Assembly (NCBI GenBank): GCA_029565675.1
Contig: JAKQNP010000008.1
Coordinates: 62,001 to 126,000, forward strand
Source of the DNA: a bacterium
GTDB taxonomy: Bacteria; Zhuqueibacterota; Zhuqueibacteria; Residuimicrobiales; Oceaniaggregativiventaceae
Length of the DNA stretch: 64,000 bases
Direction: 5' to 3'
The position numbers and the translations under genes were made by a program. The notes under the pieces were generated by a model. That model saw only the letters and a program-made list of their open reading frames with translations, made no database searches and was not told where the DNA came from. This document shows positions 1 through 60,595 of this stretch, in pieces. Position 1 is the stretch's first letter. Each line of letters starts with the position of its first letter.

Positions 1-702
1 CAATATGGCGGTAGCGATTCCTTCCGCCAACAAACGGCCATGTTGATAACCTGACATCAGACGGCTGATTTTTGCACGCAGCGCCTCGATGTTGATCTTG
101 AGCTTGCTGCGGTCGACAAACTCAACGTCTTCGGAAAAATCGAGTTCCACCTCCAACAGCGCACACTGCTCCTTCAGGTCGTCGCGCAAATGGTGCAGAT
201 CCCTCGACAACCAACCCTGCAGATTCTGAAGAGACAATCGGTGCTCTGCTGCCGTCTGCGCGCGGATCAAATCATCGATCGCTTCAGCTTGCACCAGGTC
301 GATTTTGCCGTTGATAAACGCTCGGCGGGTAAACTCTCCCGGTTGCGCCGGCCTGGCGCCCGCTTCGCACAGGCGCTTGAGGATTTGCTGTACGATATAA
401 GGGCTGCCATGGCAACTGATTTCGACCACATCCTCGCCGGTGTAGCTGTGTGGCGCGATAAATTTGCTCACCAACACCCGGTCGATCAACTGATCCTGTC
501 CGCCCGTTTCGCGCAAACTCGCGAAAATCTGCCGATGCGACGGCAGTTGGTCGAATTCTCGTTTTCGCTTGAGCAATTGGCCGGCAACGGAAAAGGCCTG
601 CGGTCCGCTGACACGGATAAGGGCCAAGGCCGCCATGCCCGCGGCGGTCGCCGGCGCGGCGATCGTATCGCCGAGTAGCAGATCTCTCATGGTGTTGGGC
701 AT
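1..702 (-). CDS. mnmE: tRNA uridine-5-carboxymethylaminomethyl modification GTPase MnmE (N-terminal part, cut by window edge)
   Basis: The minus strand is open from an ATG at 702 to the window edge (234 codons, no stop), so only the N-terminal part is present. The protein opens MPNTMRDLLLGDTIAAPAT and continues with ALIRVSGPQAF, GEDVVEISCHG and GEFTRRAFINGKIDL. These match the formyl-tetrahydrofolate-binding and first helical region of MnmE; the G domain lies outside the window. MnmE with MnmG modifies U34 of certain tRNAs. A second ATG at 690 is possible. It is last in the rpmH-rnpA-yidD-yidC-mnmE run, 78 bp after yidC, with no jag/khpB gene between. Confidence 0.93.
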   Translation of the reverse strand, partial: MPNTMRDLLLGDTIAAPATAAGMAALALIRVSGPQAFSVAGQLLKRKREFDQLPSHRQIFASLRETGGQDQLIDRVLVSKFIAPHSYTGEDVVEISCHGSPYIVQQILKRLCEAGARPAQPGEFTRRAFINGKIDLVQAEAIDDLIRAQTAAEHRLSLQNLQGWLSRDLHHLRDDLKEQCALLEVELDFSEDVEFVDRSKLKINIEALRAKISRLMSGYQHGRLLAEGIATAIL

Positions 703-780
703 TTCTGCGCGAATCTTACATAAAAGCCCTGCCTGGGTTCGTCACAAGCAGGGCGTCGATTTGCGTTGGCCAAACCGCGT

Positions 781-2532
781 TCACCGCTGTTTCAGTTTTT
801 TCGCTTTGTCGTTGATTTGCGGGGCCGGCGTTTTTTGACTCAATTTTTGCTGCAAAATGGAGAGAACATTAAAAAGCGCATAATAGAGATTCAATCCGGA
901 TGGAAAGGTGTTGAACAAAAGAATAAAAAAGATCGGCATCATGTAAACCATGGCCTTTTGTTTCGGATCGGTAACCGACATCTTTTGTTGCCAGATCATG
1001 GTGGCACCCATCAACAAAGGCAAAACGTTTACCCCGTTGCCGTAGATCGGAATGGAAAAGGGCAACGTGTAGACGGTATCGGGCATGGAAAGATCTTTTA
1101 TCCAGCCGATAAAACCAGCGCCGCGCAATTCAATGGTGCTGCGAAAGACGATGAAAAGGCCGTAGAGCAATGGCATTTGCAGCACCATCGGCAGACATCC
1201 GCTCATCGGATTGACTTTTTCGCGCTTGTAAAGCTCCATCATTTCTTTTTGATAGCGCTGCTGATCGTTGCCGCACTTTTCTTTCAGCTCTTCAAGTTTT
1301 GGCTGCAACAGCTTCATTTTGTTCATCGACTCATAACTCTTGTGAGTCAATGGCCAGACGATAAGCTTGATCAAAAATGCAAATATGATCAGGACCACCC
1401 CATAGTTCGGAACGACGGTGTGTATTTTCTTGAAGGTCCACAAGATGGCGATGCTGAAGGGTTGAATGATTTTGGCGCCGAAATCCATTGTTTTTTCTAG
1501 ATTGCGCCCATAGCTCTTGAGCAGATCATCATCCAGTGGGCCGACATAGATGCGGAAATGATCGCCTTCGCGCGGAGTGTTGAGAAAAGGCATGCCAAGC
1601 GAGATGGCAAACTTTTTCCATTTCTCACCGCTTGGCTTTTGCGCCACTTCCTGTAGAAAGACTTTCGCAGAGGTCGCTTGCCGATTCTCCGGCATCATGA
1701 CGAGAGTGAAATACTTGGTGCGCACAGCCATCCAGTCGAAGGAGCCAGCTTCGTGATAGAGTCGCCCCTTATCTTTATAGTCCTTTTCGATTCGTTTTCC
1801 GGAAGCCAGAACAACTTTGGCATAGTGCATATCATCTGCCAAACGCTTTTCTGTGGACATTAAACCGGTTGGCGAGTCGAGATAGTATACTTTTTCATCG
1901 ACATGGTGTTGCATGTTGATAAATTGCACTGCCAGATCAAAATCGTAGCGGTCGCCGTAAAAAGTATAGACCTTTCTGATCTGCGCATCTCCCGACCAGG
2001 GCAAAACAAAGGATACGGTGGCACTTGCTGTGCGGTCGAGCGTCAGCAACGTGTCGCTGTCGCAGGAAAAATTCCACTCAAGGGTGTTGATCGTATCTCC
2101 GTCGACGTGGTAATAACTCAGTCCGAGATTTCCTTCGTTCTGCGCCGGCAGGAGATGAACAAATTGACCCTCTGAATCGGTATAGTCTTTCAGTATCGCC
2201 TGTTGCAGGGACGCACCTTTGCTGCTGATCTCAATCCTAAAAAGCGGTGTCTCGACAGCTATGGATTTGGCCGCAATGTCATGGTAAGCCTGCGGAGATC
2301 TCTTCGTCGCCGACAGCTGGGTTTCGTGGGATATTTGATCCATTGCTTTGGGAGAAGGCCGTTCTTGTTCTTCTTGACTAGAGGCGGTCAGTGTGTCCTG
2401 TGCGGCGATCTGATTCTGATTCCTCTCGTAGCGGTCAGGGGCGACCCACTTCTGGTAAAAAGGCGAATAGACAAATGCAAGGACCAGCCCTATCAAAATA
2501 AATGCCAACAGTGTTCTTTTATCGAATTCCAT
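781..2532 (-). CDS. yidC: Membrane protein insertase YidC
   Basis: YidC inserts and folds inner-membrane proteins, alone or with SecYEG. The 583-residue length and an N-terminal membrane segment (LLAFILIGLVLAFVYSPFY) followed by a large periplasmic domain of about 300 residues are the Gram-negative form. The C-terminal insertase core has the usual membrane segments (for example YGVVLIIFAFLIKLIVWPLT, then LPMVLQMPLLYGLFIVF with its preceding MSGC) and a basic tail ending in KKLKQR. I prefer the ATG at 2532 because AGGA lies 5 nt upstream; the ATG at 2538 abuts that motif. It sits between yidD and mnmE. Confidence 0.97.
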   Translation of the reverse strand: MEFDKRTLLAFILIGLVLAFVYSPFYQKWVAPDRYERNQNQIAAQDTLTASSQEEQERPSPKAMDQISHETQLSATKRSPQAYHDIAAKSIAVETPLFRIEISSKGASLQQAILKDYTDSEGQFVHLLPAQNEGNLGLSYYHVDGDTINTLEWNFSCDSDTLLTLDRTASATVSFVLPWSGDAQIRKVYTFYGDRYDFDLAVQFINMQHHVDEKVYYLDSPTGLMSTEKRLADDMHYAKVVLASGKRIEKDYKDKGRLYHEAGSFDWMAVRTKYFTLVMMPENRQATSAKVFLQEVAQKPSGEKWKKFAISLGMPFLNTPREGDHFRIYVGPLDDDLLKSYGRNLEKTMDFGAKIIQPFSIAILWTFKKIHTVVPNYGVVLIIFAFLIKLIVWPLTHKSYESMNKMKLLQPKLEELKEKCGNDQQRYQKEMMELYKREKVNPMSGCLPMVLQMPLLYGLFIVFRSTIELRGAGFIGWIKDLSMPDTVYTLPFSIPIYGNGVNVLPLLMGATMIWQQKMSVTDPKQKAMVYMMPIFFILLFNTFPSGLNLYYALFNVLSILQQKLSQKTPAPQINDKAKKLKQR

Positions 2533-2595
2533 GATCATCCTGCTGTTGAGTTTGTTCGATGTCGGTAGCCAAAAGAATTGTTGATACCGCGTGTT

Positions 2596-2832
2596 TTAAA
2601 CCGGGTCGTAACCCCCTGGATGAAATGGATTGCAGCGCAGCAAGCGGGTTAACGCTTTATACAATCCGGCGAAGAACCCATGTTTCTCCAGAGCTTGGAT
2701 AGCATAATTCGAACAGGACGGATAGAAACGGCAGGTACGCGGCAGAAAGGGAGAAAGGCATTTTTGGTAAACGCGAATGATGAAAATTAACGCTTTTGCC
2801 GGGCAACTTTTTATTTTCAGCAGGTCAGACAT
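2596..2832 (-). CDS. yidD: Membrane protein insertion efficiency factor YidD
   Basis: This is a 78-residue YidD/UPF0161 protein with the family core [20 protein letters not shown], then [11 protein letters not shown] and the closing [11 protein letters not shown]. The three cysteines and the CRFYPSCS signature are intact. YidD is a small peripheral membrane protein that helps YidC-dependent insertion. An ATG at 2832 is chosen over a TTG at 2838; neither has a strong Shine-Dalgarno, consistent with translation coupled to rnpA, which ends 12 nt upstream. Confidence 0.95.
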
Positions 2833-2844
2833 AGACAAAAAGGG

Positions 2845-3219
2845 TTATTGTTGCCAATGCGATTCGCGCAGAGCGGATTCGATCCGGCATAATCCTGCCA
2901 TAAAGTCTTCCGTCAACGGTTTAAAAGAGCAATCGAGAACAGATTCTCCAGCAGCGACGATTATTGACGCGGATAGAGAAAAAAGCGGAGAGCTTATGCG
3001 CCACAACTCTCTCTCTATTCTCTTGATTTTATTTCTTTTAACTGCAGTTTTGCGGTTTTTTTTCACCACAAACCCTATTTTAACCGATTCCGCAGGCACA
3101 AAGAGAAACAAAAAATATTTTTGCCGCAAAGAATAACCGTTGGCGAAAATTGCGGCAAATTCATCACTCTTCAGAATTGAACTCTTGTGCAGGGGATATT
3201 TTTTACCGGTTGGATTCAT
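2845..3219 (-). CDS. rnpA: Ribonuclease P protein component
   Basis: This is the protein subunit of RNase P, which helps the catalytic RNA remove tRNA 5' leaders. The 124-residue length fits, and the family signature is visible as [19 protein letters not shown], the conserved RNRIKR-type RNA-binding helix. The reading begins inside rpmH: the ATG at 3219 overlaps the last 17 nt of rpmH, with an adjacent GTG at 3222 as alternative. Overlapping rpmH-rnpA starts are known in other bacteria. No RNase P RNA gene was seen in this window. Confidence 0.95.
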
Positions 3220-3355
3220 CACTGACGGTCAACCGTTTGCGGCCTTTTGCCCGACGTCGTTTGAGGACGATTTGGCCACCTTTGCTGCTCATGCGGGCTC
3301 TGAAGCCATGGACATTGATGCGCTTCCTGCGACTGGGCTGGAACGTTCTTTTCAT
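3203..3355 (-). CDS. rpmH: 50S ribosomal protein L34
   Basis: This is a 50-residue protein opening [20 protein letters not shown], with the near-invariant MKRT(F/Y)QPSxRKR start and a GFRARM...KGGQ...[10 protein letters not shown] body typical of bacterial L34. It is extremely basic and ends DESNR. It is the first gene of the minus-strand run and diverges from dnaA, the usual arrangement around bacterial origins. A possible promoter lies at 3550-3578. Confidence 0.97.
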
Positions 3356-3549
3356 AGATTCCTCGCTCTTTCTGGTTGTTGAAGACCTTTCCGTAAAGCC
3401 AGCGCCGATAAAACAGTAAAAAGATCGAACCTGCGCTTGGGGGCAATCAAAATAGAACCGTAAACGGGCCCCGGCTGTGTGATCGCGCGAACCGGAATGG
3501 CGTATTGTCGACTTGTTTTTAATCTAAATCATTTATACTAAAGCTTATA

Positions 3550-3578
3550 AATTTAGAATATTTTTTTATTTTTTGCAA
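3550..3578 (-). promoter_or_regulatory. Candidate promoter for rpmH-rnpA-yidD-yidC-mnmE
   Basis: On the minus strand a TTGCAA (3573-3578) and a TAAATT (3550-3555) are separated by exactly 17 bp in a very AT-rich stretch, about 190 bp upstream of rpmH. The -10 is only a fair match, so this is tentative. Its layout matches other promoters proposed in this window. Confidence 0.35.
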
Positions 3579-3664
3579 GATTTTTATTCTGTCTTTCCCT
3601 TTCTGGATAAGAATTGTCGCGTTGCGGCAGAGGAATAACCCTTGCAAAAAACGTGCTTGGCAAA

Positions 3665-3916
3665 TGTGGATAAACTATTTTTTCGTCTTGACATTGAAAT
3701 GCGATTTATCTAAGTTTGATCAGCTCTCCTGCTGCTATAACATCTTGTGGATAAGCCTCTAATTCTCGTTTTGCCATTCAGCGAGTAAAAATCGAGAGCG
3801 TTGCATGCCTTGTGGATATCTTTTATTGCTTTTTTTATAATTTGCTGTTTTTAATCAACTTTTGGTTTTTTGCTAACCTGAGTTAATGTGGAAAAGCCAA
3901 ACAATAATGTGGATAA
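3665..3916. other. oriC: oriC, upstream DnaA-box cluster
   Basis: Five DnaA-box-like 9-mers lie between rpmH and dnaA, all in the same orientation: TGTGGATAA at 3665-3673, 3746-3754 and 3908-3916, TGTGGATAT at 3811-3819 and TGTGGAAAA at 3887-3895. Three are perfect complements of TTATCCACA. The surrounding 3530-3600 stretch is strongly AT-rich. Together with the second cluster and unwinding element downstream of dnaA this makes a bipartite origin. The stretch 3356-4009 holds no gene; it carries these boxes and the two candidate divergent promoters. Confidence 0.85.
3688..3716 (+). promoter_or_regulatory. Candidate dnaA promoter inside the origin
   Basis: A perfect TTGACA (3688-3693) is followed after 17 bp by TAAGTT (3711-3716), which keeps only the TA...T core of a -10. 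DnaA boxes lie just upstream (3665) and downstream (3746), so binding of DnaA could control its own gene, as in other bacteria. Confidence 0.35.
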
Positions 3917-4009
3917 CTCTGGGGATTCAATTTTATAGGTGTCGCAATGCGAAATGAACTAGATGTTGATAATTCGGACCTTTTTGTCCAGGAAACAAAG
4001 GAAAAAACC

Positions 4010-5362
4010 ATGGATAGTGCGGTCATCCATAAATGGAATGAAATTCTGAATATCGTCAAGGACGGCACCCCGTCGAACAGTTTTGTCACCTGGTTTAAAC
4101 CTATCAAGCCCGTTAAGCTCGAAAACAATTCCTTGACCATTCAGGTGCCCAGCCAATTCTTTTATGAATGGATGGAACAGCACTATAGTGTATTGCTCAA
4201 CGATGCCATCCGCCTTGTTTTGGGTCCTGACCACAAATTGCTCTATTCTATCGTGATGGATTCTGCTACCACGCCGGTGCAACTGCCTTCTTTCAATAAA
4301 AAAATTCTGCCAGGGCGTCCGCAAAATGGACATGATAATCTGAGCACTCGCTATACCTTTGACTGCTTTGTTGAAGGAGAAAGCAACAAGTTTGCCAAAG
4401 CGGCTGCTCTGGCAGTGGCAAAATCCCCAGGTAAAACCACATTCAATCCATTGGTGGTTTACGGCGGCGTTGGACTCGGAAAAACCCACCTGATTCAGGC
4501 TATTGGCAATTATGCAAAAGTTGATACAGCGACAACCCGAGTCCTCTATGTGGACAGTGAGCGTTTCACCATGGATTTTATCAGCAGTATTCAGAAGAAT
4601 AAAACCACCGAGTTCAGCGACCTCTACCGCAATGTTGATCTTTTGTTGGTCGACGATATTCAATTTTTCGCCAATAAAGAAAGAACGCAAGAAGAATTCT
4701 TTCATACTTTTAATACTCTGCATCAAAAAGGCAAACAAATCGTTCTCTCCTCAGACCGTCCACCGAAAGAGTTGCAGGGAATGGAAGAGCGGCTGATTTC
4801 GCGCTTTCAGTGGGGATTGGTCGTCGATATTCAACCTCCTGATCTGGAAACAAGACAGGCAATTTTGCAGCGCAAGGCCGAAGAAAATGGTATTGTCATG
4901 ACCACTGAAATTTTCCATTTTATTGCCACACATATTACCTCCAACATCCGCGAATTGGAAGGCGCTTTGATTAGATTGCTCGCTTATGCCTCATTGAATG
5001 GGATCGATATCACCCTCGATCTGGCAAAAAATGTTTTGAAAGATGTCTGCATCAAGAAAAGCAAGGCCATCAGCATCGAATTGATCCAAAAGTTTTCCGC
5101 CGAATTTTTTGGTTTTCCCGACGATCTTTTGCGTGCCAAAACACGCAAAAAAGAAATTGCCCAGGCCCGCCAGATCTCGATGTATCTCTGCAAAATGCTG
5201 ACCGACAACTCTTTAAAAACGATTGGCCTTCATTTTGGCGGCCGGGATCACAGCACTGTCATTCATGCGGTCAATACCATCGAACAGAGCAAAGATCAAG
5301 ATACAAAAATCCGCGAGGCGATCGAAAAAATCGCTTCAAAAATTGAAATTTCTCAGCTTTAA
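4010..5362 (+). CDS. dnaA: Chromosomal replication initiator protein DnaA
   Basis: DnaA binds DnaA boxes and opens oriC in its ATP form. Visible parts: domain I with the early Trp and SFVTWFKPIKP; the AAA+ core with Walker A GGVGLGKTH (about 152-160) and Walker B LLVDDIQFF; and the C-terminal DNA-binding signature GGRDHSTVIHAVN. From the ATG at 4010 the protein has 450 residues, and the domain I Trp falls at residue 9, as in other DnaA proteins; AAAGGA lies about 7 nt upstream. The frame is open upstream to another ATG at 3947, which would add 21 acidic residues; this cannot be excluded. Confidence 0.97.
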   Translation: MDSAVIHKWNEILNIVKDGTPSNSFVTWFKPIKPVKLENNSLTIQVPSQFFYEWMEQHYSVLLNDAIRLVLGPDHKLLYSIVMDSATTPVQLPSFNKKILPGRPQNGHDNLSTRYTFDCFVEGESNKFAKAAALAVAKSPGKTTFNPLVVYGGVGLGKTHLIQAIGNYAKVDTATTRVLYVDSERFTMDFISSIQKNKTTEFSDLYRNVDLLLVDDIQFFANKERTQEEFFHTFNTLHQKGKQIVLSSDRPPKELQGMEERLISRFQWGLVVDIQPPDLETRQAILQRKAEENGIVMTTEIFHFIATHITSNIRELEGALIRLLAYASLNGIDITLDLAKNVLKDVCIKKSKAISIELIQKFSAEFFGFPDDLLRAKTRKKEIAQARQISMYLCKMLTDNSLKTIGLHFGGRDHSTVIHAVNTIEQSKDQDTKIREAIEKIASKIEISQL

Positions 5363-5782
5363 TATCCAGGGTGAACAATTTTTCTAAAAAGATGTTAACA
5401 AACCCTGTGGAAAACTCGGTCTTTTTTCTGGATAACTTGTTGACAGAATGTGAATGATTTTTTTTGCAACAGGGTTTAAAATTGCAGTCGGCGTTTTTCC
5501 ACAAAAGAAATGAACTTTTCACCAACTTTTTCACATCCCCATTATGACTAAAAAACAATATTTTAGAACAATAATAGACGGCTTATCAACATATCAACAG
5601 CCCCTACTACTACTATTTTTATTCGCTTGAATTATTATTATTATTGTACTAAGTTTATCACCATAATTCAGAGTCAGTAAAATTCGTGCAAATTTGTTTG
5701 CTTGCTAGGTGTCTGGCGGTGGATTTGCTTTCTCAGGATTTGCCGCAAACCCATTTTACAGTGATTTTTCAAGGAGGGCAAA
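5363..5782. other. oriC: oriC, downstream cluster between dnaA and dnaN
   Basis: This 420-bp gap has no gene. It holds DnaA-box-like sequences in both orientations: TGTGGAAAA at 5406-5414, TCTGGATAA at 5427-5435, TTTTCCACA at 5495-5503 and TTATCAACA at 5583-5591. The last leads into the unwinding element at 5583-5615, followed by an A/T-rich tract with ATTATTATTATT near 5630-5645. The dnaN ribosome binding site (AAGGAGGG) lies at its end. The arrangement mirrors the two-cluster origin of Bacillus subtilis. Confidence 0.85.
5583..5615 (+). other. Basal origin unwinding element: DnaA boxes, GC cluster and DnaA-trios
   Basis: In order the sequence reads TTATCAACA (5583-5591), an overlapping ATATCAACA (5591-5599), a short G/C cluster GCCCC, then four CTA triplets (5604-5615), then a T-run. 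On the complementary strand the triplets are 3'-GAT repeats, the DnaA-trio motif on which a DnaA filament assembles to melt the origin. Element order, spacing and orientation match the known B. subtilis element between dnaA and dnaN. This marks the probable melting site. Confidence 0.85.
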
Positions 5783-6940
5783 ATGAAATTTTCTGTGGCA
5801 AAATCTGAATTGTACAATTCCTTGCATAAAATTATCGGTGTGGTTCCGCAGAAAACCACCATTGCGGTTCTCAATTGCCTGTTGATGGAAGTTGAAAACA
5901 ACCAGCTGAATTTAACTGGAACTGATCTGGAAATTTCGGTTACCACTTCTTTGCCGGTGGAAGGCAGTGAAAACGGTATCATGGCTGTACCGGCACGATT
6001 GCTGGCAGATATCGTCAAAGAATTGCCCGATGTGCCTTTAACCTTGTATTCTCATGAAGGAAACAAATTGGTGATTGAAACCGAAAAGGGAGAGTACAAG
6101 ATAGCCACACAACCAAAAGAAGATTTCCCAAAAATCAATGTTGAAGAAAGTGTTCTTACCCTTGACCTCAGCAGCGATAAGGTGATTCATCTGATCAACA
6201 AAACGATTTTTGCTGTTTCTGCGGACGAATTGCGGCCTGCGCTGACTGGAATCAATATGGAATTGTTGCCCGATGAACTGCGTTTTGTGGCAACAGATGG
6301 ACATCGCCTTTCGAAGATTGTTTTTTCAAATTTTGATTCGCCGGTTAAGGAAAAAAGAAATTTTATCATTCCGACCAAAACCCTCAATTTGTTGTTGCGC
6401 AACGTTGAAAACGACGATCGGGTTAATATTCAGATAGGTGAAGATCACATTGTTTTTCAGCTCCAGACCGCGACGATCTATTCCAAGTTGATCAACGGAG
6501 CTTATCCCAATTATGAAAGAGTGATTCCGACCGACAACGACAAACGGCTGGTTGTTAACCGCGACCTGTTGTTGGCAACGCTTCGCCGGGTTTCCATTTT
6601 TTCCAGCTCATTGACTCGTCAGGTTCGCCTGGTTATCACCCCCAATGAACTGACCATCCGCAGCGAAGATATCGAATTCGGTGCGGAAGCCAAAGAAATG
6701 ATTCCAGCATCGTTTTCTGCGGAATGGATGCAAATCGGCTACAACTCGAATTATTTTATTGATATTCTGCGGCATGTCGATGGCGAAGAAGTTATCATCG
6801 AACTCAAGGACAGCATGAGTGCAGCAGTCATGTTTCCATCTGAACAACAGGAGAAAGAAGAGCACCTGATGTTGTTGATGCCTATCCGCATCAATGAAGA
6901 ATCATACGAAGGGGAGTCCAGCTCCGAGGAAAATGAGTAA
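5783..6940 (+). CDS. dnaN: DNA polymerase III beta sliding clamp
   Basis: The 385-residue protein has the start MKFSVAKSELYNSLHKIIGV and the family landmarks GTDLEISV near residue 50, VPARLLADIVKELPD, and ATDGHRLSK around 175. Three clamp subdomains of about 125 residues are expected; the dimer encircles DNA and tethers the polymerase and other partners. The C-terminus carries an unusual acidic tail (ESYEGESSSEENE) beyond the normal LMPIR end of the clamp, which would project near the partner-binding face. A strong AAGGAGGG Shine-Dalgarno precedes the ATG. recF starts 9 bp downstream. Confidence 0.97.
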   Translation: MKFSVAKSELYNSLHKIIGVVPQKTTIAVLNCLLMEVENNQLNLTGTDLEISVTTSLPVEGSENGIMAVPARLLADIVKELPDVPLTLYSHEGNKLVIETEKGEYKIATQPKEDFPKINVEESVLTLDLSSDKVIHLINKTIFAVSADELRPALTGINMELLPDELRFVATDGHRLSKIVFSNFDSPVKEKRNFIIPTKTLNLLLRNVENDDRVNIQIGEDHIVFQLQTATIYSKLINGAYPNYERVIPTDNDKRLVVNRDLLLATLRRVSIFSSSLTRQVRLVITPNELTIRSEDIEFGAEAKEMIPASFSAEWMQIGYNSNYFIDILRHVDGEEVIIELKDSMSAAVMFPSEQQEKEEHLMLLMPIRINEESYEGESSSEENE

Positions 6941-6949
6941 GAACAGGCG

Positions 6950-8077
6950 ATGCGACTCAACCGACTTTGGATAAAATCGATTCGCAATCTTTGTGAGATC
7001 GATCATCTGTTTTCTCATTCCAAAACGTTTATTTATGGCGAGAACGGTCAGGGAAAGACCAATCTCCTCGAAAGTATTTATCTGCTCTGTTTGGCAAAAA
7101 GTTTTCGCACTCGTGATGATGCGGATTTGCTGCCGATCGAAGCGGATTTTTTTCGTGTGGAAGGAGAATTGGCGGATACCAACGGCAGCAATCACCGCGT
7201 GGTTGTTTATTTCAGTGAAGCAACAGGTAAAAAAATTCAACTGGACGGAAAACCACTTCGTCCGTTTTCCGCATTGGTCGGCAAATTTCCAGTGGTTGCT
7301 CTCTCGGCCGGAGATCAATCGATCACCCTGGGTCCTCCCAGTGAGCGACGTCGTTTTATCAATATTCTGCTTTCTCAAAGCTCCCATCGTTATTTGGACG
7401 ATCTAAAAGAATACGAACGGATTCTCAAACATCGCAATGCGCTGTTGAGCCGCTCCTTACAGGGTGAGCGTATCTCTGCGCAGCAAATCGATCCCTGGGA
7501 TGAAAGATTGGTGTGTAAAGGCGAAGCGCTCGTTCTCAGCCGCGAAAAAATGACCATCGAACTCAATGCGCTCTTGTCTTCCGCTTATTCCTATTTGACC
7601 GGTGGAAACCAGGTTCTCTCGTTGTCGTACAAGCCGAATGTCCCGATGATCGCAGGACAAGAGCGGCGGGAAACGTTTTTTCGCCGCTTGAAGACGGCCA
7701 GCGCGAAAGAAAGAAAACAGGGAATTTCTTTGGTCGGTCCGCATCGCGATGACTTTGTTTTTATGATCAGCGGTCGCGATTTGCGCCGCTTCGGTTCTCG
7801 AGGCGAGCACAAAAGCGTTCTGGTGAGCCTCAAATCAGCTGAAGCATTTTTTTTGCAGGAAAAAACGAACACTGCGCCGCTGTTGTTGCTGGACGATCTA
7901 TTCGCAGAACTGGATGAAATGCGGGGAAAAAAGGCGATTTCTTTGTTTTCTCAGTCATGCCAGATTTTTATAACCGGCACGACCGCTGACTATATGGCAT
8001 TGAAACCCTTTCTGGAAAAAGAAGGCGAATTCGACCCCTTGTTTGTGCAACAGGGAAAGGTAAACAAGCAAACATGA
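6950..8077 (+). CDS. recF: DNA replication and repair protein RecF
   Basis: RecF is an SMC-like ATPase that loads RecA at gapped DNA with RecO and RecR. The 375-residue protein has Walker A GENGQGKTN at about 30-38, the ABC signature region around GEHKSVLVSLKSAEAFFL, and Walker B LLLLDDLFAELDE near 310. It lies in the conserved dnaN-recF order and overlaps the next gene by 4 nt (ATGA), indicating translational coupling. Confidence 0.96.
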   Translation: MRLNRLWIKSIRNLCEIDHLFSHSKTFIYGENGQGKTNLLESIYLLCLAKSFRTRDDADLLPIEADFFRVEGELADTNGSNHRVVVYFSEATGKKIQLDGKPLRPFSALVGKFPVVALSAGDQSITLGPPSERRRFINILLSQSSHRYLDDLKEYERILKHRNALLSRSLQGERISAQQIDPWDERLVCKGEALVLSREKMTIELNALLSSAYSYLTGGNQVLSLSYKPNVPMIAGQERRETFFRRLKTASAKERKQGISLVGPHRDDFVFMISGRDLRRFGSRGEHKSVLVSLKSAEAFFLQEKTNTAPLLLLDDLFAELDEMRGKKAISLFSQSCQIFITGTTADYMALKPFLEKEGEFDPLFVQQGKVNKQT

Positions 8078-8358
8078 CAGTGAAAAGTCTCGCAGAATCC
8101 TTGCAAGAGCTGTTCACAGAACTCGGCCACGCGAAGAAAATCAAACAAGTAGAAATCCTGCAAAAATGGCCGGAGATTGTCGGCGCGCAGATCAGTGCCA
8201 TAACAATTGCCGAACAGATCCGTGACGATGTTTTGTATGTTCGGGTTAAAAGTATGACCTGGAAGAGCGAATTGGTGCTGCGCAAGCAGGAATTGCTGAG
8301 CAGAATTGCTGAAAGCGTGGGAAAAAACATTCTCTCCGATATCCGTTTCACCATTTAA
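8074..8358 (+). CDS. DUF721 protein, DciA-like candidate helicase loader
   Basis: A 94-residue protein with the DUF721 pattern: an early helical region, VEILQKWPEIVGAQIS with the conserved W-x-x-I/V-V-G, then DDVLYVRVKSMTWKSELVL with the V/S-x-x-W-x-x-E-L core, ending in a short helix and I-x-x-I-R-F. DUF721 includes DciA, the ancestral loader or regulator of the replicative helicase DnaB. This protein matches the compact core of that family without the long extra tail seen in some DciA. Its place between recF and gyrB fits a replication role; helicase loading here is inference. Confidence 0.8.
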   Translation: MTVKSLAESLQELFTELGHAKKIKQVEILQKWPEIVGAQISAITIAEQIRDDVLYVRVKSMTWKSELVLRKQELLSRIAESVGKNILSDIRFTI

Positions 8359-8375
8359 TAATGATCAGCGAGTAA

Positions 8376-10298
<1,923 letters not shown>

Positions 10299-10377
10299 CA
10301 ATCACAAATCAATTGCCAGTCATATTTTCGAGTCTAACTGCTGATCGAGTGCGATAGACGATAGGAAATCCCGCGAC

Positions 10378-12789
10378 ATGGAAAAGAATGAGAAAATTGT
10401 CCCGATTTTAATCGAAGAAGAGATGCGCCATTCGTACATCGATTATTCGATGTCTGTCATTGTTTCACGCGCCTTGCCGGATGTTCGGGATGGGCTAAAG
10501 CCAGTACACCGACGCGTTCTTTACGGTATGTTGGAGCTCGGTCTTCGACCCAATTCAGCCTATAAAAAAAGTGCCCGCATCGTGGGTGAGGTTCTCGGCA
10601 AATATCATCCGCACGGTGATACGGCAGTCTACGATGCCATGGTTCGCATGGTACAGGATTTTTCTTTGCGCTATCCTCTGGTCGATGGCCAGGGCAATTT
10701 CGGCTCGATCGATGGCGACTCGCCGGCGGCCATGCGATATACGGAAGCGAAATTGGCTCAAATTGCGGATGAAGTGCTGCGCGATATCGAAAAGAACACC
10801 GTTCCCTTTGTCCCCAATTTTGATGACACCTTGAAAGAACCTCTGGTTCTTCCCTCGCTTTTGCCGATGCTGGCGGTTAACGGCGCTTCCGGTATTGCGG
10901 TCGGCATGGCAACCAATATCCCGCCACACAATCTCTCCGAGGTCATTGACGCGTTGGCTTTGATTATTGAAAAACCAAACATCGCTCCGGAGAATCTGCT
11001 CGATACAATTAAAGGGCCTGATTTTCCAACCGGCGCAATCATCGTCGGCAATGAAGAGATTGTTGAATACTTTAAATCCGGCAAAGGCAGACTCGAAGTG
11101 CGCGCACGAGTCCATATCGAGGATTTGCGCGGTGGGCGAGAGCGCATCGTGGTCACCGAGATTCCCTACCAGGTCAACAAAACCTCCCTTATCGAGCGTA
11201 TTGCCAGCCTGGCACGCGACAAACAGATCGAAGCCATCAGCGATATCCGCGATGAGTCTGACCGCGAAGGCATGCGCATCTCCATCGAGCTGCGCAAAGA
11301 CGCCAATGTCGAAAAAGTGGTCGAATTTCTTTACAATCACACGCAGATGAAAATGACTTTTGGGGTGAATCTTTTGGCCCTGTCGAATGGCAAACCCAAA
11401 GTCATGAACATCAAAGAGATGCTGGTTGAATTCCTCAATTTTCGCCACGAGGTGGTGTTCAAGCGGCTGACCTTTGATCTGGACAAGGCGGAGAAGCGCG
11501 CCCACATCCTTGAGGGATTAAAAATCGCGCTGGACAATATCGAGGAAATTATCGCTCTCATCCGCAAGTCGCGCTCGGTCGAAACCGCGCGCGCCAACCT
11601 GATGAAACAGTTCAAACTGTCCGAAATTCAAGCTCAGGCGATACTCGATATGCGCTTGCAAAGGCTGACCGGTCTGGAACGCAAAAAAATCGAAGATGAA
11701 TATTTGGAAATCATCAAACTGATCGAGAAATTGCGCTCGTTGTTGGCCAGCAAGTCGCGCCGCCTGCAGTTGATCAAGGAAGAGCTGCTGGAACTCAAAG
11801 CCAAGTACGGCGATACTCGACGAACCCAAATCATCTCCGGCGAACAAAAAAAGAACCTGCAAGAAATACTCAAAGAGGAAGAGGTGCTGGTGTCGATCAG
11901 CCACAAGCAGATGATCCAGCGCTATGCCGCACACGAGCTCGAACGAGCGAACGATCTGCTTAAAACCGGAATCGACAATCAGGATTTTATCATCAAGCTC
12001 TTTAAATCGTCTGTCAGCCACTATGTCCTGAATTTCACCGATACCGGCATTTGCTATATGCTGCGCACCAGCGCCATTCCACTTGCCAACAACGGCAACA
12101 GCACCTCATTGTTTCGCATGCTGACAATCGCCGAGAATGTCAAAATTATCGAACACATCGAAATAGAAAAATTTATTGAAGACCGCTTTATTTTTCTGGT
12201 AACCCAGGAAGGCCTGGTGAAAAAGATTGCTCTTTCCGAATTGGCAAAACGCAAAGAAGTCGGAGCATCCGTCATTTCTTTAAAAGAGAAAGACCACCTG
12301 GTTTCTGCCTTTATCACCGATGGTGAGCGGGAAATCCTGCTCGCCACGCGGGAGGGCAAAGCCATACGTTTCCAGGAGAGCGATGTTCGCGATATGGGAT
12401 TGGCGGCCGGCGGCATTCGCGGCATGACCCTGGAATCGGGTGATGAGATCGTTTCTGCTCTGCCACTCACCCTGAAAAAAGCTTCGACCCTGTTGACCGT
12501 GACCAGCCTGGGTTACGGCAAGCGCTGTCAGCTGGATGAATACAGCCTGATCAAGCGCGGCGGCAAGGGTATCGTCAATACCAAAACGAACGAAAAAGTC
12601 GGTGAGGTTGCCGGCGTGATGGAAGTGAATGAAAAACAAGTTGTGGTTTTGACCACCAAGAAAGGTCGACAAAAACGAGTCAAAATAAAAGACATCAAAA
12701 TCATGGGCCGCGCATCCATGGGCATGGTTGCCGCAAATATTGCCAAAGGAGATCAGGTTATCGACTTGAGCTCATTACCGGTATATTGA
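10378..12789 (+). CDS. gyrA: DNA gyrase subunit A
   Basis: This is the 803-residue DNA cleavage and wrapping subunit. [20 protein letters not shown] and [18 protein letters not shown] mark the winged-helix region, and [10 protein letters not shown] carries the catalytic tyrosine. The C-terminal beta-pinwheel is present, but its GyrA box reads IKRGGKG, with the usual first Gln replaced by Ile. At the position of E. coli Ser83 there is Thr (GDT), while Asp87 is kept. It ends 34 bp from the convergent patatin-like gene. Confidence 0.95.
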
Positions 12790-12823
12790 TGGCCGCAACC
12801 GATTTCTGCACCAATCGCTCCGG

Positions 12824-15499
12824 TCAGAACCCATAGCCAAACTGCAGATAGAACTGCTCTCTGCCCAAACTGGCCTTACCATAGGCAACGGTGAAAGGGC
12901 CGGCAGGTGTGGCAAAAGAGAGGGCCAGACCTTTACCGCTTATAAAGTCCTTCGGTTTGATATCCACCGATTTTTCCCATACCGCACCAAAATCGAAACG
13001 CGTGCTTAAGTATATATTTACAAATGACTTCCAGGGGAGAAAGTACCGATACTCCAGGCTGGTGACGAAAGCATGACGTCCAACAAAATCATCTTCCCGC
13101 AGACCATAGAATGAATTGATTCCGCCCAACCGAAATTGTTCCGAAAAGGGCAATGTCAGGTCTGATGTTCCCCAAAAGAGCTTTGGTGACACCGTGTTGC
13201 GGCGGCGAAAGGTCCAAAACGAAGACAGTTGGTTTTGCACCTTGAAATAAGAAAGATCGGCGCCGAGAAATTTTCCGGAAGAGACCTCGTAATAGAATTG
13301 GTGAAATTTTCCGCTGCGGGGAAAGGGAACCTGGTCGCGGGCGTCGATGGTCGAAATCAAACCCAGGGTGCTGATATTCATTTTTCCGACATCATAGCCC
13401 GATCCGGAATGGCTTTGCAATTCGATTTTATTGAAACGCATGAATCCGGAGATGGTGCCCAGGCGCTCGATCTGCCGGCCGAGATTCAAATGAATGCCAT
13501 GGGTCTTGCGCCCATACTCGCCTTGAAGATTATGGTTTTGATAATAATGATGCATTGTTTCGGTATAAAGCAGGTCGATTCCACCGGTAAACAGGGTTTG
13601 AAAAATGCGATCTGCGCGCAAAGTGACGCCGGTTTGCAGATCGCGCAACCCGTAAAGCACATTAAACGACAAATCATTCGCCGTTCCCAAAAAGTTGTCG
13701 TCGGAAACTTCCGCAAATACCCGGCCATACCGTTCCAGATTATAGGCCATGCCGAGGCGAAAGGAGGTGGACAACTGTTCCTGCAGGTCGAGGCGAATAT
13801 CCCAACCTGTTTCTGTGGGTATGGGCTTGAGAACAACGGACTGAAATAAACCGGAAGCATAAATGTTGCTGATATTTTCCTTGGCGAGGCCAAGTTGAAA
13901 AACCTGCCCACTTTTTATGGTAAAATCGCGGGAAATCACATAGTCTTTGGTTTTCTTGTTGCCCGAATAGACAATCTGGCCGATTCTGCCCTCATCGATT
14001 TCCACCGTGGCCGTTCCATCTGTCGGCTCAAAAATGACGGTATCAAGTGCAGCCAAAACATAACCGTTTGATTTGTACATTTTGATCACCTCGAGCAGCG
14101 CTTTGCGGCTCGATCCTTGATTGATGTTTTTCTCGAGCAGGGCATTGAAAGGCTGGATCAGAACTGAATCAGCAAAGATGGTGTTGCCGCGAAAGGTGAT
14201 TTTTTTTATCACCGGATGAAAGGTACCGCGGTAGACCAGGACCGTATCCTGTTCCTCTGCCAGGATGGCTGCGCTCACATCCCGATAATTGCCCGTATGG
14301 TAGATCTTATACAGATCTTGTGCGATTTCACATTCACTCAACCGATTTTTCTTGGCAATATGGAGATCCGCGATCGCCTCCTGCGGCACATTTTCCAAGC
14401 GAAAATTGGCAAAATGCCAGATCGCGGCATTGGAGCAGCTCTGCTCCTGGTATTTTTGCAGCGTTGCCTCGAGCTCATCGATGACCAAAGATGTGCGCCG
14501 GTAACCTTCGTCATAAAGAGTCTGAAAGATTTTTTTAGTTGCTTCCATGGAATTCATCTGCAGATCGCTCAGGCTGACAATAAAATCCGCGCCGGCCAGT
14601 TCAGCCTGTTTGATGGGAACCTGCATGATGGTGGTCACTTGATCAGCGACCTCCCAGGGTGCGCGAATCGCTTCTCGTTGCCGCAGAGGAGATGTCGTAT
14701 CGATGGCGATGACCAGGTCGGCTCCCAGCGTTCTGGTTTCAGAGACCGGGATGTTGTCCATCAGGCCGCCATCCACCAGAAGTGACTGGCTATACTCGAC
14801 CGGTGAAATCAAGAGTGGAATCGCGACAGAAGCGCGAATCGCTGTGACCAGATCTCCCGCTGCCATCACCACCTTTTTCCCCTGCAAAAGATCTGTGGCA
14901 ATGATTCTCAACGGAACATGCAGACGGTCAAACTCCTGAGCGTGGTGGGGGGCTCTGAGAATTAAATCGGTGAGCAATTCAGTCAGTTTTTGTCCCGGCG
15001 TATAAGCTTCAGGCAAGGTTGGCGTCAGTCCATCCAGGCGTATCTGCAGAATCGGCTGACGGCCTTTTTCTTTTTGCCCCAGGAAAAGCGAGGAACGTTG
15101 CGGTCGGTCGCGCAGGATATCGCCAAAATCCAATTGGTTCAGCAATTGCCACAGCTCATCGGGTGTATAGCCAGAAGCATACAACCCGCCGATTATCGCG
15201 CCGATGCTGGTCCCGACCATACAATCGATCGGTATGTTTCGATCTTCAAAAGCTTGCAGAGCCGCGATTTGCGCAACACCGCGCAAGCCGCCGCCGCTCA
15301 AAGCCAGCCCAATTCGAGGCCGCTCTACTTTTTGTTGTGGAAGGATGTATAGAGGCGGCCGCTCCCAGCCATCAAGAGGCAAGGCGATTGCGCGAAGGCA
15401 GTCACTTGCCGTCAAAATCTTCGTGCTGGACAACAGAAAAACGAGGGCAAAAATGACAGCTGTGCAGAGTGGATTAATTTCTTTTTTGTTTTTGGCCAA
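12824..15499 (-). CDS. Patatin-like phospholipase with POTRA domains and a BamA-type outer-membrane barrel
   Basis: The TTG at 15499 starts a protein of 891 residues: a signal peptide (AKNKKEINPLCTAVIFALVF), a patatin domain, about two POTRA-like repeats (ITFRGNTIFADSVL; IVYSGNKKTKDYVISRDF), and a C-terminal barrel ending in Phe. Patatin motifs are the oxyanion-hole GGGLRG (about 70), the serine motif GTSIG and VDGG with the catalytic Asp. This is the PlpD/FplA-like plan of self-secreted lipases, but with a longer POTRA region. An in-frame ATG at 15580 lies upstream of the probable transcription start and is rejected. GAGGAG lies about 9 nt before the TTG. Confidence 0.88.
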   Translation of the reverse strand: MAKNKKEINPLCTAVIFALVFLLSSTKILTASDCLRAIALPLDGWERPPLYILPQQKVERPRIGLALSGGGLRGVAQIAALQAFEDRNIPIDCMVGTSIGAIIGGLYASGYTPDELWQLLNQLDFGDILRDRPQRSSLFLGQKEKGRQPILQIRLDGLTPTLPEAYTPGQKLTELLTDLILRAPHHAQEFDRLHVPLRIIATDLLQGKKVVMAAGDLVTAIRASVAIPLLISPVEYSQSLLVDGGLMDNIPVSETRTLGADLVIAIDTTSPLRQREAIRAPWEVADQVTTIMQVPIKQAELAGADFIVSLSDLQMNSMEATKKIFQTLYDEGYRRTSLVIDELEATLQKYQEQSCSNAAIWHFANFRLENVPQEAIADLHIAKKNRLSECEIAQDLYKIYHTGNYRDVSAAILAEEQDTVLVYRGTFHPVIKKITFRGNTIFADSVLIQPFNALLEKNINQGSSRKALLEVIKMYKSNGYVLAALDTVIFEPTDGTATVEIDEGRIGQIVYSGNKKTKDYVISRDFTIKSGQVFQLGLAKENISNIYASGLFQSVVLKPIPTETGWDIRLDLQEQLSTSFRLGMAYNLERYGRVFAEVSDDNFLGTANDLSFNVLYGLRDLQTGVTLRADRIFQTLFTGGIDLLYTETMHHYYQNHNLQGEYGRKTHGIHLNLGRQIERLGTISGFMRFNKIELQSHSGSGYDVGKMNISTLGLISTIDARDQVPFPRSGKFHQFYYEVSSGKFLGADLSYFKVQNQLSSFWTFRRRNTVSPKLFWGTSDLTLPFSEQFRLGGINSFYGLREDDFVGRHAFVTSLEYRYFLPWKSFVNIYLSTRFDFGAVWEKSVDIKPKDFISGKGLALSFATPAGPFTVAYGKASLGREQFYLQFGYGF

Positions 15500-56879: not shown

Positions 56880-57150
56880 CAGGCTCTGCCTTTGAATGTA
56901 TCTCGCCGGCTCTGCCGCCCAACAATTCTCAACAGCAAAGATCGACAAATGGCCGAGTCTGAAACTCGTTCCAATCGGTCATTTGCAGTTTCTTTTAACT
57001 TTCGCATTTCGCACTTCGAAATTGCAAATTATTTACTTCGCCTCCTCGGCCGCAAGAGCGGCGGCCTGCGGGGTCGCGCTCCGCTGAATTTAATGAGGCG
57101 GGTTGTGTGGGCTGGATCGTCTCCGCCACCGCGGGGCTTGCCCCCGCGGA
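56880..57150 (+). repeat. Composite dispersed repeat, copy B (left flank of the cassette)
   Basis: A 271-bp sequence with the same length and near-identity as 60837-61107. It begins CAGGCTCTGCC, includes AACAATTCTCAACAGCAAAG, and ends in the CCGCGGGG/CCCCGCGG palindrome (57129-57149). Copies B and C lie in the same orientation, 3.96 kb apart, on either side of the AT-rich secreted-protein gene. The gap 56661-57565 holds this copy, a short low-complexity patch at about 56830-56870, and the promoter at 57372-57400. Confidence 0.88.
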
Positions 57151-57371
57151 CACGAAATCTGTCACTCCCCATTTTTAGGGCTTTTGTCCCAGCATTTAGC
57201 AATCCTCAAATGACTCTGATTTAATTAATATAAGAGGTTTCTTTGAGAATAGGATCGATTTAGAAAAATATATTAATCTCTTGGTCTTCAGTAAAATTCT
57301 GAATAAAATTAAATCACTCATCCCTTTAACGAATATGACAATAATAAATGACCTAAAGGCACTGAATGACA

Positions 57372-57400
57372 TTGCATTTTTCATCACAACTATATATGTT
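57372..57400 (+). promoter_or_regulatory. Promoter for the large secreted protein
   Basis: TTGCAT (57372-57377), 17 bp, TATGTT (57395-57400), about 165 bp before the gene in AT-rich sequence. Confidence 0.42.
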
Positions 57401-57565
57401 ATCATACCTGTTGGGTACTCTTTGTAGCCATAAATCAGTGAATTCTGAATAACATGGATAGTAGATTCCCTATAGGAGACCGTATGAATAGGTTATTCAA
57501 AATGAACTTTAGGACTAAAACACACATCTAGATATCATAAAACGACAAGAAAGGAATCAATTACC

Positions 57566-60500
57566 ATGTACACACGAATTCAAAATATTATGTGTATCTG
57601 CACATTTGTATGCTGCACTGCACTTTTTGCTGTGGATACACAACAGCTTTTAAGTGAATTAGAAGCTGAGCGTGACAAGCTTGACAAGAGCAGATTTGAG
57701 GAACTAGATACGGGCAGAGTATCAGAAGCAGAGATTAGACAAACGAAACAGAAAATCGCAGAGATTAAAATTCAGCTGGATGAAGTAACTAATGAATTGG
57801 ACAATGCGGTTTTTTATCGAAATGATGTCTATTTGGATTTAAACATCGATCTCGTTGATTTTTATGTTTATGAATATTCCTCAGGTTATTATCAGGTTCA
57901 TGCTCTTATTAAAAACAAGAAAGGTAAATATTTAGATTGGATCAAATTAAGATACAATTTGTACAAGAATGGCTCTTTCGTAGCAACCGATTATAGCTAT
58001 ATAGATTATGAATCGTATGGTTATACAGGTATGTCGCCTTATTCAGTTACATTTTTCGAGGCATACCTCGAAAAAGTAGATTTTGATAGTATCGGCTATG
58101 AAATTGACTATGATATTGAAGATGGCAGTGGCAACATTTTATGGGATCAGATTTTACAACTGGAATCCGTTGTTCTCCAGCCTTACGGGAGCAGTAACAA
58201 ATGGCAGGGAGTTGTTCGCAACGACCATAACTATACCATGAAGTTTGCCAAAATCTTTGCCTGCATATACAAAAATGACAGAATGATTGCTACTGATTAT
58301 ACCTATTTGGATGTGCCTGATAATACTATGCCCGCCAATACCTCGGCGGTATTTGATTCATATATCAATTTACCAGAAGATTATGATGAAATTAAATATT
58401 ATCTAAATTATGCCTTATATTCACTGGAAGGTACTGGAAACCTGCCACCGAATAGGCCAATTTTTACCGAGAGGTCTGCAACCGGGCATTCCCGAATCAT
58501 CTCGCAATTCGTCGTTTTTGTTATAGACCCTGATAATGACAGCATCGATTTATTTGCAGACTATGATAATGGAGCGGTATCTGCGTGGCTGAAAAATTAT
58601 ACCTCTGGTTATAGTGCAGATTTTGACTATGCCTATCCACTTTCCGGAATTTTTAAAATGCGTGCCAAAGCATCGGACAGAAACCATGAGACTGCTTGGT
58701 CTGACCCATTGATTGTTACCATCAATCCGTCCACGTCTCCAAAGATAGCAAATACTGAAATTGGACAAGCGGATTATAAAAGATCTTATCAGTTTCAGTT
58801 TCAAAGCAATGGAGGTATTGAACCTTTGTCATGGAAGATCAACACTGGAAATATTCCTAAGGGACTGGTTTTGGACAACAACAGCGGTCTGATCTATGGA
58901 ACGCCTGCAGAGTCCGGTTCATTCACTTTTACAATTCTCTGTCAAGATGCTGGCCAGCCTCCAGCAGCAGACGAGGCTCAATTTCAGTTTGTGGTCAGAA
59001 ACCAAAAGCCTGTGCTCTCGTCATCGTCACGATTGAACGCCTTCGCCAGAGAGACCGTAATCTATTCAGCAGCGGCTGAGGATCCAGATGGAAATAGCGT
59101 CAGTTTTTCGTATTTGCAGCTGCCATACTGGTTATCGGCTTCCGGCCACACTCTCAGCGGTACAGCACCAAACCAGGTTATAGAGGGCACATTTTATGTG
59201 ATAGCTACAGATGGAGATCTGGCTGATACTCTTGAGGTCAGTTTTTTTGTTCGTACGCGTCCACTTTCTATCATGACCACGGAACTTCCGTATGGGATTT
59301 ACCGATGTAATTATGAAACCCTTCTGGCTGCAGAAGGAGGATTAATCCCTTATCACTGGTCGATTGTTGAGGGATCGCTGCCTGATGGAATCGTCCTTGA
59401 TAAGACAGGAGTGATTATTGGACAGCCGATTAATTCTGGCCAATTTGTTTTTGTTGTCCAAGTCCAGGATTCGGATGCACCACCCCAAACGGATTCACTT
59501 TCTTTCCAACTTTATATTAACAACTCGGCACCAGTCATCAATTCTCCATCGTCCATATCCATACAGAAACAGCAGATTCTAACCTATAATGCCTCTGCGA
59601 CTGATGCTGATCATAATCCACTTCAATTTTATTTCAAGAACTTTCCCAGTTGGCTCGTCTCGCATGATAACATTTTAAGCGGTCTTGTGCCCTTGAGTGC
59701 GACGGACACCTCGTTTGTTGTTATTGCCAGTGATGGCGATAAAAAAGATAGTTTGCAAGTCACTCTGACAATAGAAACACCAGAACTAGTAATCGCAACC
59801 CAGTCGCTAGACAAAGGCCTCTATCTTTACGAATATGAGGCACAGCTGAGCGCTCAAAGTGGCATCGCACCCTACACCTGGTCGATGGTAGGCGGCCAGC
59901 TGCCACCCGGAATGAGCTTCTATCCTTCTGGAATTTTATTCGGCTCGCCCCAAGAATCCGGAAACTTTGATTTGCACATACAGGTAAAGGATAGTGATAT
60001 CCCGCCCCAGTTTGCGGACATAAACTTGATTCTGAACATTACCAACACTGCACCTAAAATCACATCCACAGATACGTTAACAGCCTTTAAGCTACAGCAG
60101 TGCACCTATATCGCAAGGGTAATGGATCAGGATGGGCATGAGATCACCTTAAGCTTTTCAAACCTGCCATCCTGGCTTGATGTAAGTGGTAGCATAGTTT
60201 CAGGTTTGGTGCCTTGGCCCGCTTCTGATACCAGCTTTAACCTCCTCGCCACCGATGGAGACCTTTCAGACTCGATAAAAGTAAAACTCTTTGTACGGGC
60301 AGTCACCAATGTAGAATCAGCGAATTTACCTGCAAAGTTCCAGCTTGAACAAAATTATCCCAATCCATTCAATGCCAGAACAACAATCAAGCTTGATCTT
60401 CCGCAATACACGACCTGTGAATTAGCCGTTCACGACATCCATGGTAAGCTTGTGCATAAATTGTATAAAGGTAACCTCGAAAGCGGCTCACATAAATTCG

Positions 60501-60595
60501 CTTGGAACGCCAGCACAGCATCATCTGGTATCTATTTTATCCAATTCGCTTCGCCATCATTCAACCAGGTTTTGAAATGTACTCTGTTGAAATGA
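57566..60595 (+). CDS. Large secreted putative-Ig/cadherin-like protein with type A sorting-like C-terminus
   Basis: A 1009-residue exported protein. Signal peptide (MCICTFVCCTALFAVDT region), coiled-coil helix to about residue 75, a beta-rich region to about 290, then repeated pairs of He_PIG-like Ig and cadherin-like modules. The cue phrases recur: GLVLDNNSGLIYGTPAESG, GIVLDKTGVIIGQPINSG and GMSFYPSGILFGSPQESG, each followed by DPDGNSVSFSYLQLPYWL-type units. The last 90 residues start LEQNYPNPFNARTTIKLDLP and end VLKCTLLK, the same sorting-like domain as the products at 23023 and 25337. Base composition is clearly AT-richer than the neighbours, suggesting transfer. Likely surface adhesin. 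Confidence 0.82.
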   Translation: MYTRIQNIMCICTFVCCTALFAVDTQQLLSELEAERDKLDKSRFEELDTGRVSEAEIRQTKQKIAEIKIQLDEVTNELDNAVFYRNDVYLDLNIDLVDFYVYEYSSGYYQVHALIKNKKGKYLDWIKLRYNLYKNGSFVATDYSYIDYESYGYTGMSPYSVTFFEAYLEKVDFDSIGYEIDYDIEDGSGNILWDQILQLESVVLQPYGSSNKWQGVVRNDHNYTMKFAKIFACIYKNDRMIATDYTYLDVPDNTMPANTSAVFDSYINLPEDYDEIKYYLNYALYSLEGTGNLPPNRPIFTERSATGHSRIISQFVVFVIDPDNDSIDLFADYDNGAVSAWLKNYTSGYSADFDYAYPLSGIFKMRAKASDRNHETAWSDPLIVTINPSTSPKIANTEIGQADYKRSYQFQFQSNGGIEPLSWKINTGNIPKGLVLDNNSGLIYGTPAESGSFTFTILCQDAGQPPAADEAQFQFVVRNQKPVLSSSSRLNAFARETVIYSAAAEDPDGNSVSFSYLQLPYWLSASGHTLSGTAPNQVIEGTFYVIATDGDLADTLEVSFFVRTRPLSIMTTELPYGIYRCNYETLLAAEGGLIPYHWSIVEGSLPDGIVLDKTGVIIGQPINSGQFVFVVQVQDSDAPPQTDSLSFQLYINNSAPVINSPSSISIQKQQILTYNASATDADHNPLQFYFKNFPSWLVSHDNILSGLVPLSATDTSFVVIASDGDKKDSLQVTLTIETPELVIATQSLDKGLYLYEYEAQLSAQSGIAPYTWSMVGGQLPPGMSFYPSGILFGSPQESGNFDLHIQVKDSDIPPQFADINLILNITNTAPKITSTDTLTAFKLQQCTYIARVMDQDGHEITLSFSNLPSWLDVSGSIVSGLVPWPASDTSFNLLATDGDLSDSIKVKLFVRAVTNVESANLPAKFQLEQNYPNPFNARTTIKLDLPQYTTCELAVHDIHGKLVHKLYKGNLESGSHKFAWNASTASSGIYFIQFASPSFNQVLKCTLLK

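Follow-up and report, generated by a model that had tools for sequence, protein, structure and literature searches.

The locus raises the question whether the segment at 5583-5615 of the window (i.e., the whole stretch of 64,000 nucleotides that was analysed), which lies entirely within the gap between dnaA and dnaN, is the place where the chromosome would be opened by DnaA. In an earlier note it was proposed to be an unwinding site of the type of the basal unwinding system (BUS), found in a Gram-negative, FCB-type lineage and assisted by a second box cluster upstream of dnaA. As far as can be judged from the sequence, the segment is with high confidence assigned as the BUS-type unwinding module of a chromosomal origin, and both the conservation in relatives and the sign change of the GC skew back this proposal. 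BUS itself is already known as widespread; the unexpected part is family f4, in which BUS lies away from dnaA yet still marks the origin.

Layout of the module and its counterparts

All parts of the module were read on the plus strand. The first DnaA box (TTATCAACA, 5583-5591) deviates from TTATCCACA by one mismatch and is kept in relatives, while the second (ATATCAACA, 5591-5599) deviates by two mismatches and, by direct reading, shares A5591 with the first, which results in a spacing of 8 nt. A spacer of 4 nt, GCCC (the 'GC cluster', 5600-5603), follows, this being the usual length in relatives, and then four DnaA-trios, CTA CTA CTA CTA (5604-5615), the first of which lies 12 nt after box 1 and 4 nt after box 2. 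On the opposite strand the trios read 3'-GAT-5', and this is the strand that DnaA would be expected to capture. A T-run (TTTTT, 5616-5620) directly follows the trios and opens an AT-rich stretch (5616-5660), the putative unwinding element, which overlaps a putative dnaN promoter. The coordinates of the earlier note (5583-5615) proved exact, and the sequence agrees with its description. Next to the module, the gap holds three weak boxes, two on the minus strand (TTTTCCACA, 5406-5414; TTATCCAGA, 5427-5435) and one on the plus strand (TTTTCCACA, 5495-5503).

By its sequence and position the module falls under the BUS definition: a same-facing DnaA box with at most two mismatches lies within 0-16 nt of the trios, the required three or more NAN trios with 3'-GAT nearest the box are present as the four GAT trios at 5604-5615, the location is that of a chromosomal origin according to the GC-skew sign change and the dnaA-dnaN context, and the encoded DnaA possesses an ISM, an arginine finger and an HTH. 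The dnaA gene (3947-5362, plus strand, Pfam) may instead start at the ATG at about 4011, as the alignment with many homologues begins only at residues 20-29. Its product retains the AAA+ and box-binding domains (Pfam) and keeps I190, I193, K222, E223, E228 and R264 (B. subtilis numbering), and two ISM residues that are important in B. subtilis are changed (N187 to M, R202 to S). To the left of dnaA, rnpA-yidD-yidC are divergently arranged; to the right, dnaN (5783-6940, plus strand, Pfam) is followed by recF, dciA, gyrB and gyrA, whereby dciA (DUF721, 8074-8358, plus strand; PF05258, 2.7e-19) codes for a helicase-loading factor and is located between recF and gyrB. An Rfam scan of positions 1-14000 yielded zero matches.

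Comparison with the incC BUS of B. subtilis (Richardson et al. 2019, PMC6669920; Nat Commun 2023, PMC10721633) revealed the same order and direction of elements, i.e., tandem boxes of which the upstream one is the better match, a short GC-containing spacer, 3'-GAT trios and AT-rich DNA, all within the dnaA-dnaN gap. The same layout is found in Bacillota such as Bacillus sp. (L013, TTATCCACATATTCACAagccCTACTA) and Siminovitchia fortis (L021), whose string is near-identical to that of the window (TTATCAACATATCCACAgcccCTACTACTA / TTATCAACATATCCACAgcccCTACTACTATTA). The module in the window differs from the Bacillus BUS in a C-to-A exchange at position 6 of both boxes and in the few other boxes within the gap. 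When the B. subtilis model (PMC6669920, PMC10721633) is transferred to this locus, DnaA would dock on the two overlapping, same-facing boxes, from where the oligomer would grow past the 4-nt spacer to reach the strand with the 3'-GAT trio repeats and capture the bases of that strand. In consequence of such capture, the DNA would be pulled open at the trios and along the AT-rich stretch on their right, and the helicase would then be loaded onto the opened DNA, probably with the help of DciA. Strand opening by DnaA at 5583-5615 is thus a prediction made by analogy.

The idea of the earlier note that the locus extends the mechanism to a Gram-negative lineage is not supported, since BUS had already been predicted for 1,755 of 2,070 species (85% of origins). 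In the same study, in vitro work demonstrated it in three Gram-negative species, the ones tested being H. pylori, Synechococcus and Deinococcus (PMC8287927, Pelliciari et al. 2021). The window agrees with the box, spacer and trio rules of these predictions, which include Gram-negatives. Bacteroidetes, Chlorobi, Gemmatimonadetes, Fibrobacter and Calditrichota are not named in the main text of PMC8287927, and in the literature accessible to us nothing was found on DnaA-trios in combination with Bacteroidetes or Chlorobi, nor on KSB1 origins.

Conservation in the class and significance of the match

Comparison of the dnaA-dnaN gaps of related genomes, as the earlier note had advised, documented that boxes and trios are conserved. 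The dnaA-dnaN regions were drawn from 49 relatives of the class, and the class gaps outside family f4, with the window included, amount to 39. By a criterion of our own, a pair of boxes with a spacing of 8 nt and, 3-5 nt further on, CTA/TTA is present in 29 of these 39 gaps and absent from 10, as compared to 0.1% of shuffled gaps; the looser form with a single box is present in 35 and absent from four, with 4.2% in shuffles. Where the module is clear, its spacer almost always measures 4 nt. The distance from the module to dnaN is commonly 90-120 nt, and in the window it is 193 nt. A genome-wide pattern search identified 36 matches in 35 of 63 class genomes, versus one match for the reversed control. 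The 8-nt box spacing and the mostly 4-nt spacer have hence been held over deep divergence. One relative (G026, L135) has six CTA trios in its gap that begin directly after box 2, unless a 'cta' is taken as the spacer.

A chance resemblance or a simple CTA repeat would be the most trivial reading of the module. The published permissive BUS rule (a box with at most two mismatches, 0-16 nt, three NTN) speaks for it insofar as 247 matches occur in the 435-kb contig, and the rule was dropped as a significance test for this reason, so that the argument stands on the strict form and on its conservation. The strict form is unique, and it is conserved with a fixed box spacing. In the 64 kb, TTWTCMACWTWTCMACANNNNCTACTA has a single match even when three mismatches are allowed (expected 0.00; none in 100 shuffles). 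The 435-kb contig contains CTACTACTACTA a single time and tandem boxes with CTAx3 at one place, and when the gap was shuffled 5,000 times, the latter combination never arose. Shuffles and conservation together rule out the chance reading, whose probability we regard as negligible.

As a further alternative, the conserved block might be nothing but the promoter and 5' region of dnaN, with the boxes controlling dnaN transcription. Just right of the trios, and overlapping the AT-rich stretch, resides the putative dnaN promoter TTGAAT-N17-TAAGTT (5627-5655, plus strand), which is a pattern match only, and similar matches to CTTG(A/T)..N..TAnnTT precede dnaN in 34 of 45 gaps. However, these 34 include gaps of family f4, which keep the promoter-like element without boxes or trios, and the f4 boxes and trios are found in other places, at the GC-skew minimum or close to it. 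The promoter-only reading was rejected on the grounds of the f4 gaps and is considered very improbable.

In the DnaA tree, the class groups with loci from Latescibacterota and Calditrichota (fork support 100/99, with several long branches in the tree) and stands apart from Bacillota, Nitrospirota and Acidobacteriota. A 1009-aa protein encoded at 57566-60595 possesses Ig-like repeats and, as read by eye, a type IX-like secretion sorting tail; the start of its gene coincides with a stretch of low GC content (0.39, 57001-59000). Tree and sorting tail render the FCB-type placement of the earlier note plausible, and fall short of proving it.

GC skew and the separated module of family f4

GC skew was computed contig by contig, the assembly of the window genome comprising 4.4 Mb in 64 contigs. 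On the contig of the window, the site separates a left flank with a skew of -0.033 from a right flank where the skew amounts first to +0.008 and then to +0.026, and the plus-strand coding fraction changes from 0.11 to 0.54. The switch postulated in the earlier note is thus present as a sign change, but the cumulative-skew trough is broad on this contig (about 61-101 kb), with its absolute minimum at 101 kb and BUS at 67.6 kb. The change is sharp in two related genomes: in G025 the minimum (721.0 kb) lies less than 3 kb from the BUS-bearing gap (723.4-723.7 kb), and in G016, a member of family f4, a distance of 0.5 kb separates the minimum at 53.0 kb from BUS at 53.5 kb.

Family f4 belongs to the same order as the window genome, and its genomes group together in the DnaA tree, where the support is moderate (80/95). 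Its assembled dnaA-dnaN gaps measure only 80-128 bp, and neither boxes nor a trio module were found in them. Instead, the module is located 17 kb (G017), 94 kb (G006) or 111 kb (G010) from dnaA, or on a contig other than that of dnaA (G012, G014, G016, G018, G019), and it is also carried by G021, from which dnaA was not recovered; G020 yielded no BUS candidate, its sole match being a chance-like site with three mismatches. At the six loci measured, the module is accompanied by 4-10 boxes within 350 bp, as compared to a background of 0-0.7 per 700 bp. The f4 loci that bear the module (L248, L250-L256, L264, L265) represent at least three gene neighbourhoods, among which, with some assignments made by eye, one group contains a carbamoyltransferase/SxtJ pair, another a dGTPase-like HD protein, and G017 a TonB receptor. 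In the four genomes checked, the module lies about 5-20 kb from rnpA/yidC.

In f4, the GC-skew minimum tracks BUS and not dnaA. Next to G016, this is seen in G006, where the minimum (121 kb) is 10 kb away from BUS (111 kb) and dnaA (18 kb) has negative skew on either side, and in G010, where BUS (174 kb) resides within the trough (95-185 kb) and dnaA (286 kb) has positive skew on either side; G017 shows a plateau which begins near BUS, with no sharp minimum. The simplest history would be that the dnaA-gyrA block was relocated, with the origin remaining nearer rnpA-yidC. We lean slightly towards the view that this took place within one order: BUS and the boxes around it kept their place nearer rnpA-yidC, and dnaA-dnaN-recF-dciA-gyrBA, together with the cluster upstream of dnaA, shifted by at least 17-111 kb. 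If this holds true, f4 is a natural experiment, which would define BUS as a self-sufficient origin core and would assign the cluster at dnaA to autoregulation and not to initiation. Essentially, the comparison of genomes within this FCB-like lineage of uncultured bacteria provides clean evidence that the origin is marked by the module of DnaA boxes and trios and not by the locus of dnaA.

The box cluster upstream of dnaA

The separation in f4 allows asking which of the boxes linked to dnaA truly belong to the origin. When boxes with at most one mismatch within 600 nt of dnaA are counted, the window contains six upstream of the gene, all on the minus strand (3665-3972; starts at 3665, 3746, 3811, 3887, 3908 and 3964), three of them being exact TTATCCACA. 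The earlier note had described a cluster of the same orientation, which is correct within the cluster itself; relative to the BUS boxes, the cluster faces the opposite way, as do 190 of 219 upstream boxes class-wide. In Bacillus, in contrast, the orientation within the upstream cluster is mixed. Five of the six boxes are located downstream of a putative dnaA promoter, TTGACA-N17-TAAGTT(TG) (3688-3716, plus strand, pattern match), i.e., towards dnaA.

It had further been suggested that the cluster serves as one arm of a bipartite origin as in B. subtilis and H. pylori, where a loop formed by DnaA around dnaA would connect upstream cluster and BUS region. Two box clusters flank dnaA in the window and in most relatives outside f4, no other 1-kb bin of the contig is as dense in boxes as the upstream one, and the bipartite oriC of Helicobacter pylori (PMC8235120) likewise combines a cluster upstream of dnaA with a downstream module of box, GC cluster and trios. 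Given that the distal boxes of B. subtilis function whichever way they face (PMC6669920), the cluster may still loop in the genome of the window. In f4, however, unlike in H. pylori, both parts are separated on the chromosome, so that cluster and unwinding module are not inherited together: the cluster remains at dnaA, and BUS, with boxes of its own, is found at a distance of 17-111 kb or on a separate contig. Conservation of the cluster therefore needs no nearby BUS, and, together with the opposite facing of its boxes, this weakens the bipartite role, which we regard as possible and rather doubtful.

Autoregulation explains better why the cluster stays with dnaA when BUS is distant. DnaA is known to regulate its own gene (PMC8203912), and autoregulation is therefore the better single explanation. 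Most likely, the upstream cluster is chiefly a site of dnaA autoregulation.

The genes dnaA and dnaN carry matching promoter-like elements (3688-3716 and 5627-5655). That of dnaA resembles the Bacteroidetes -7 element, TAnnTTTG.
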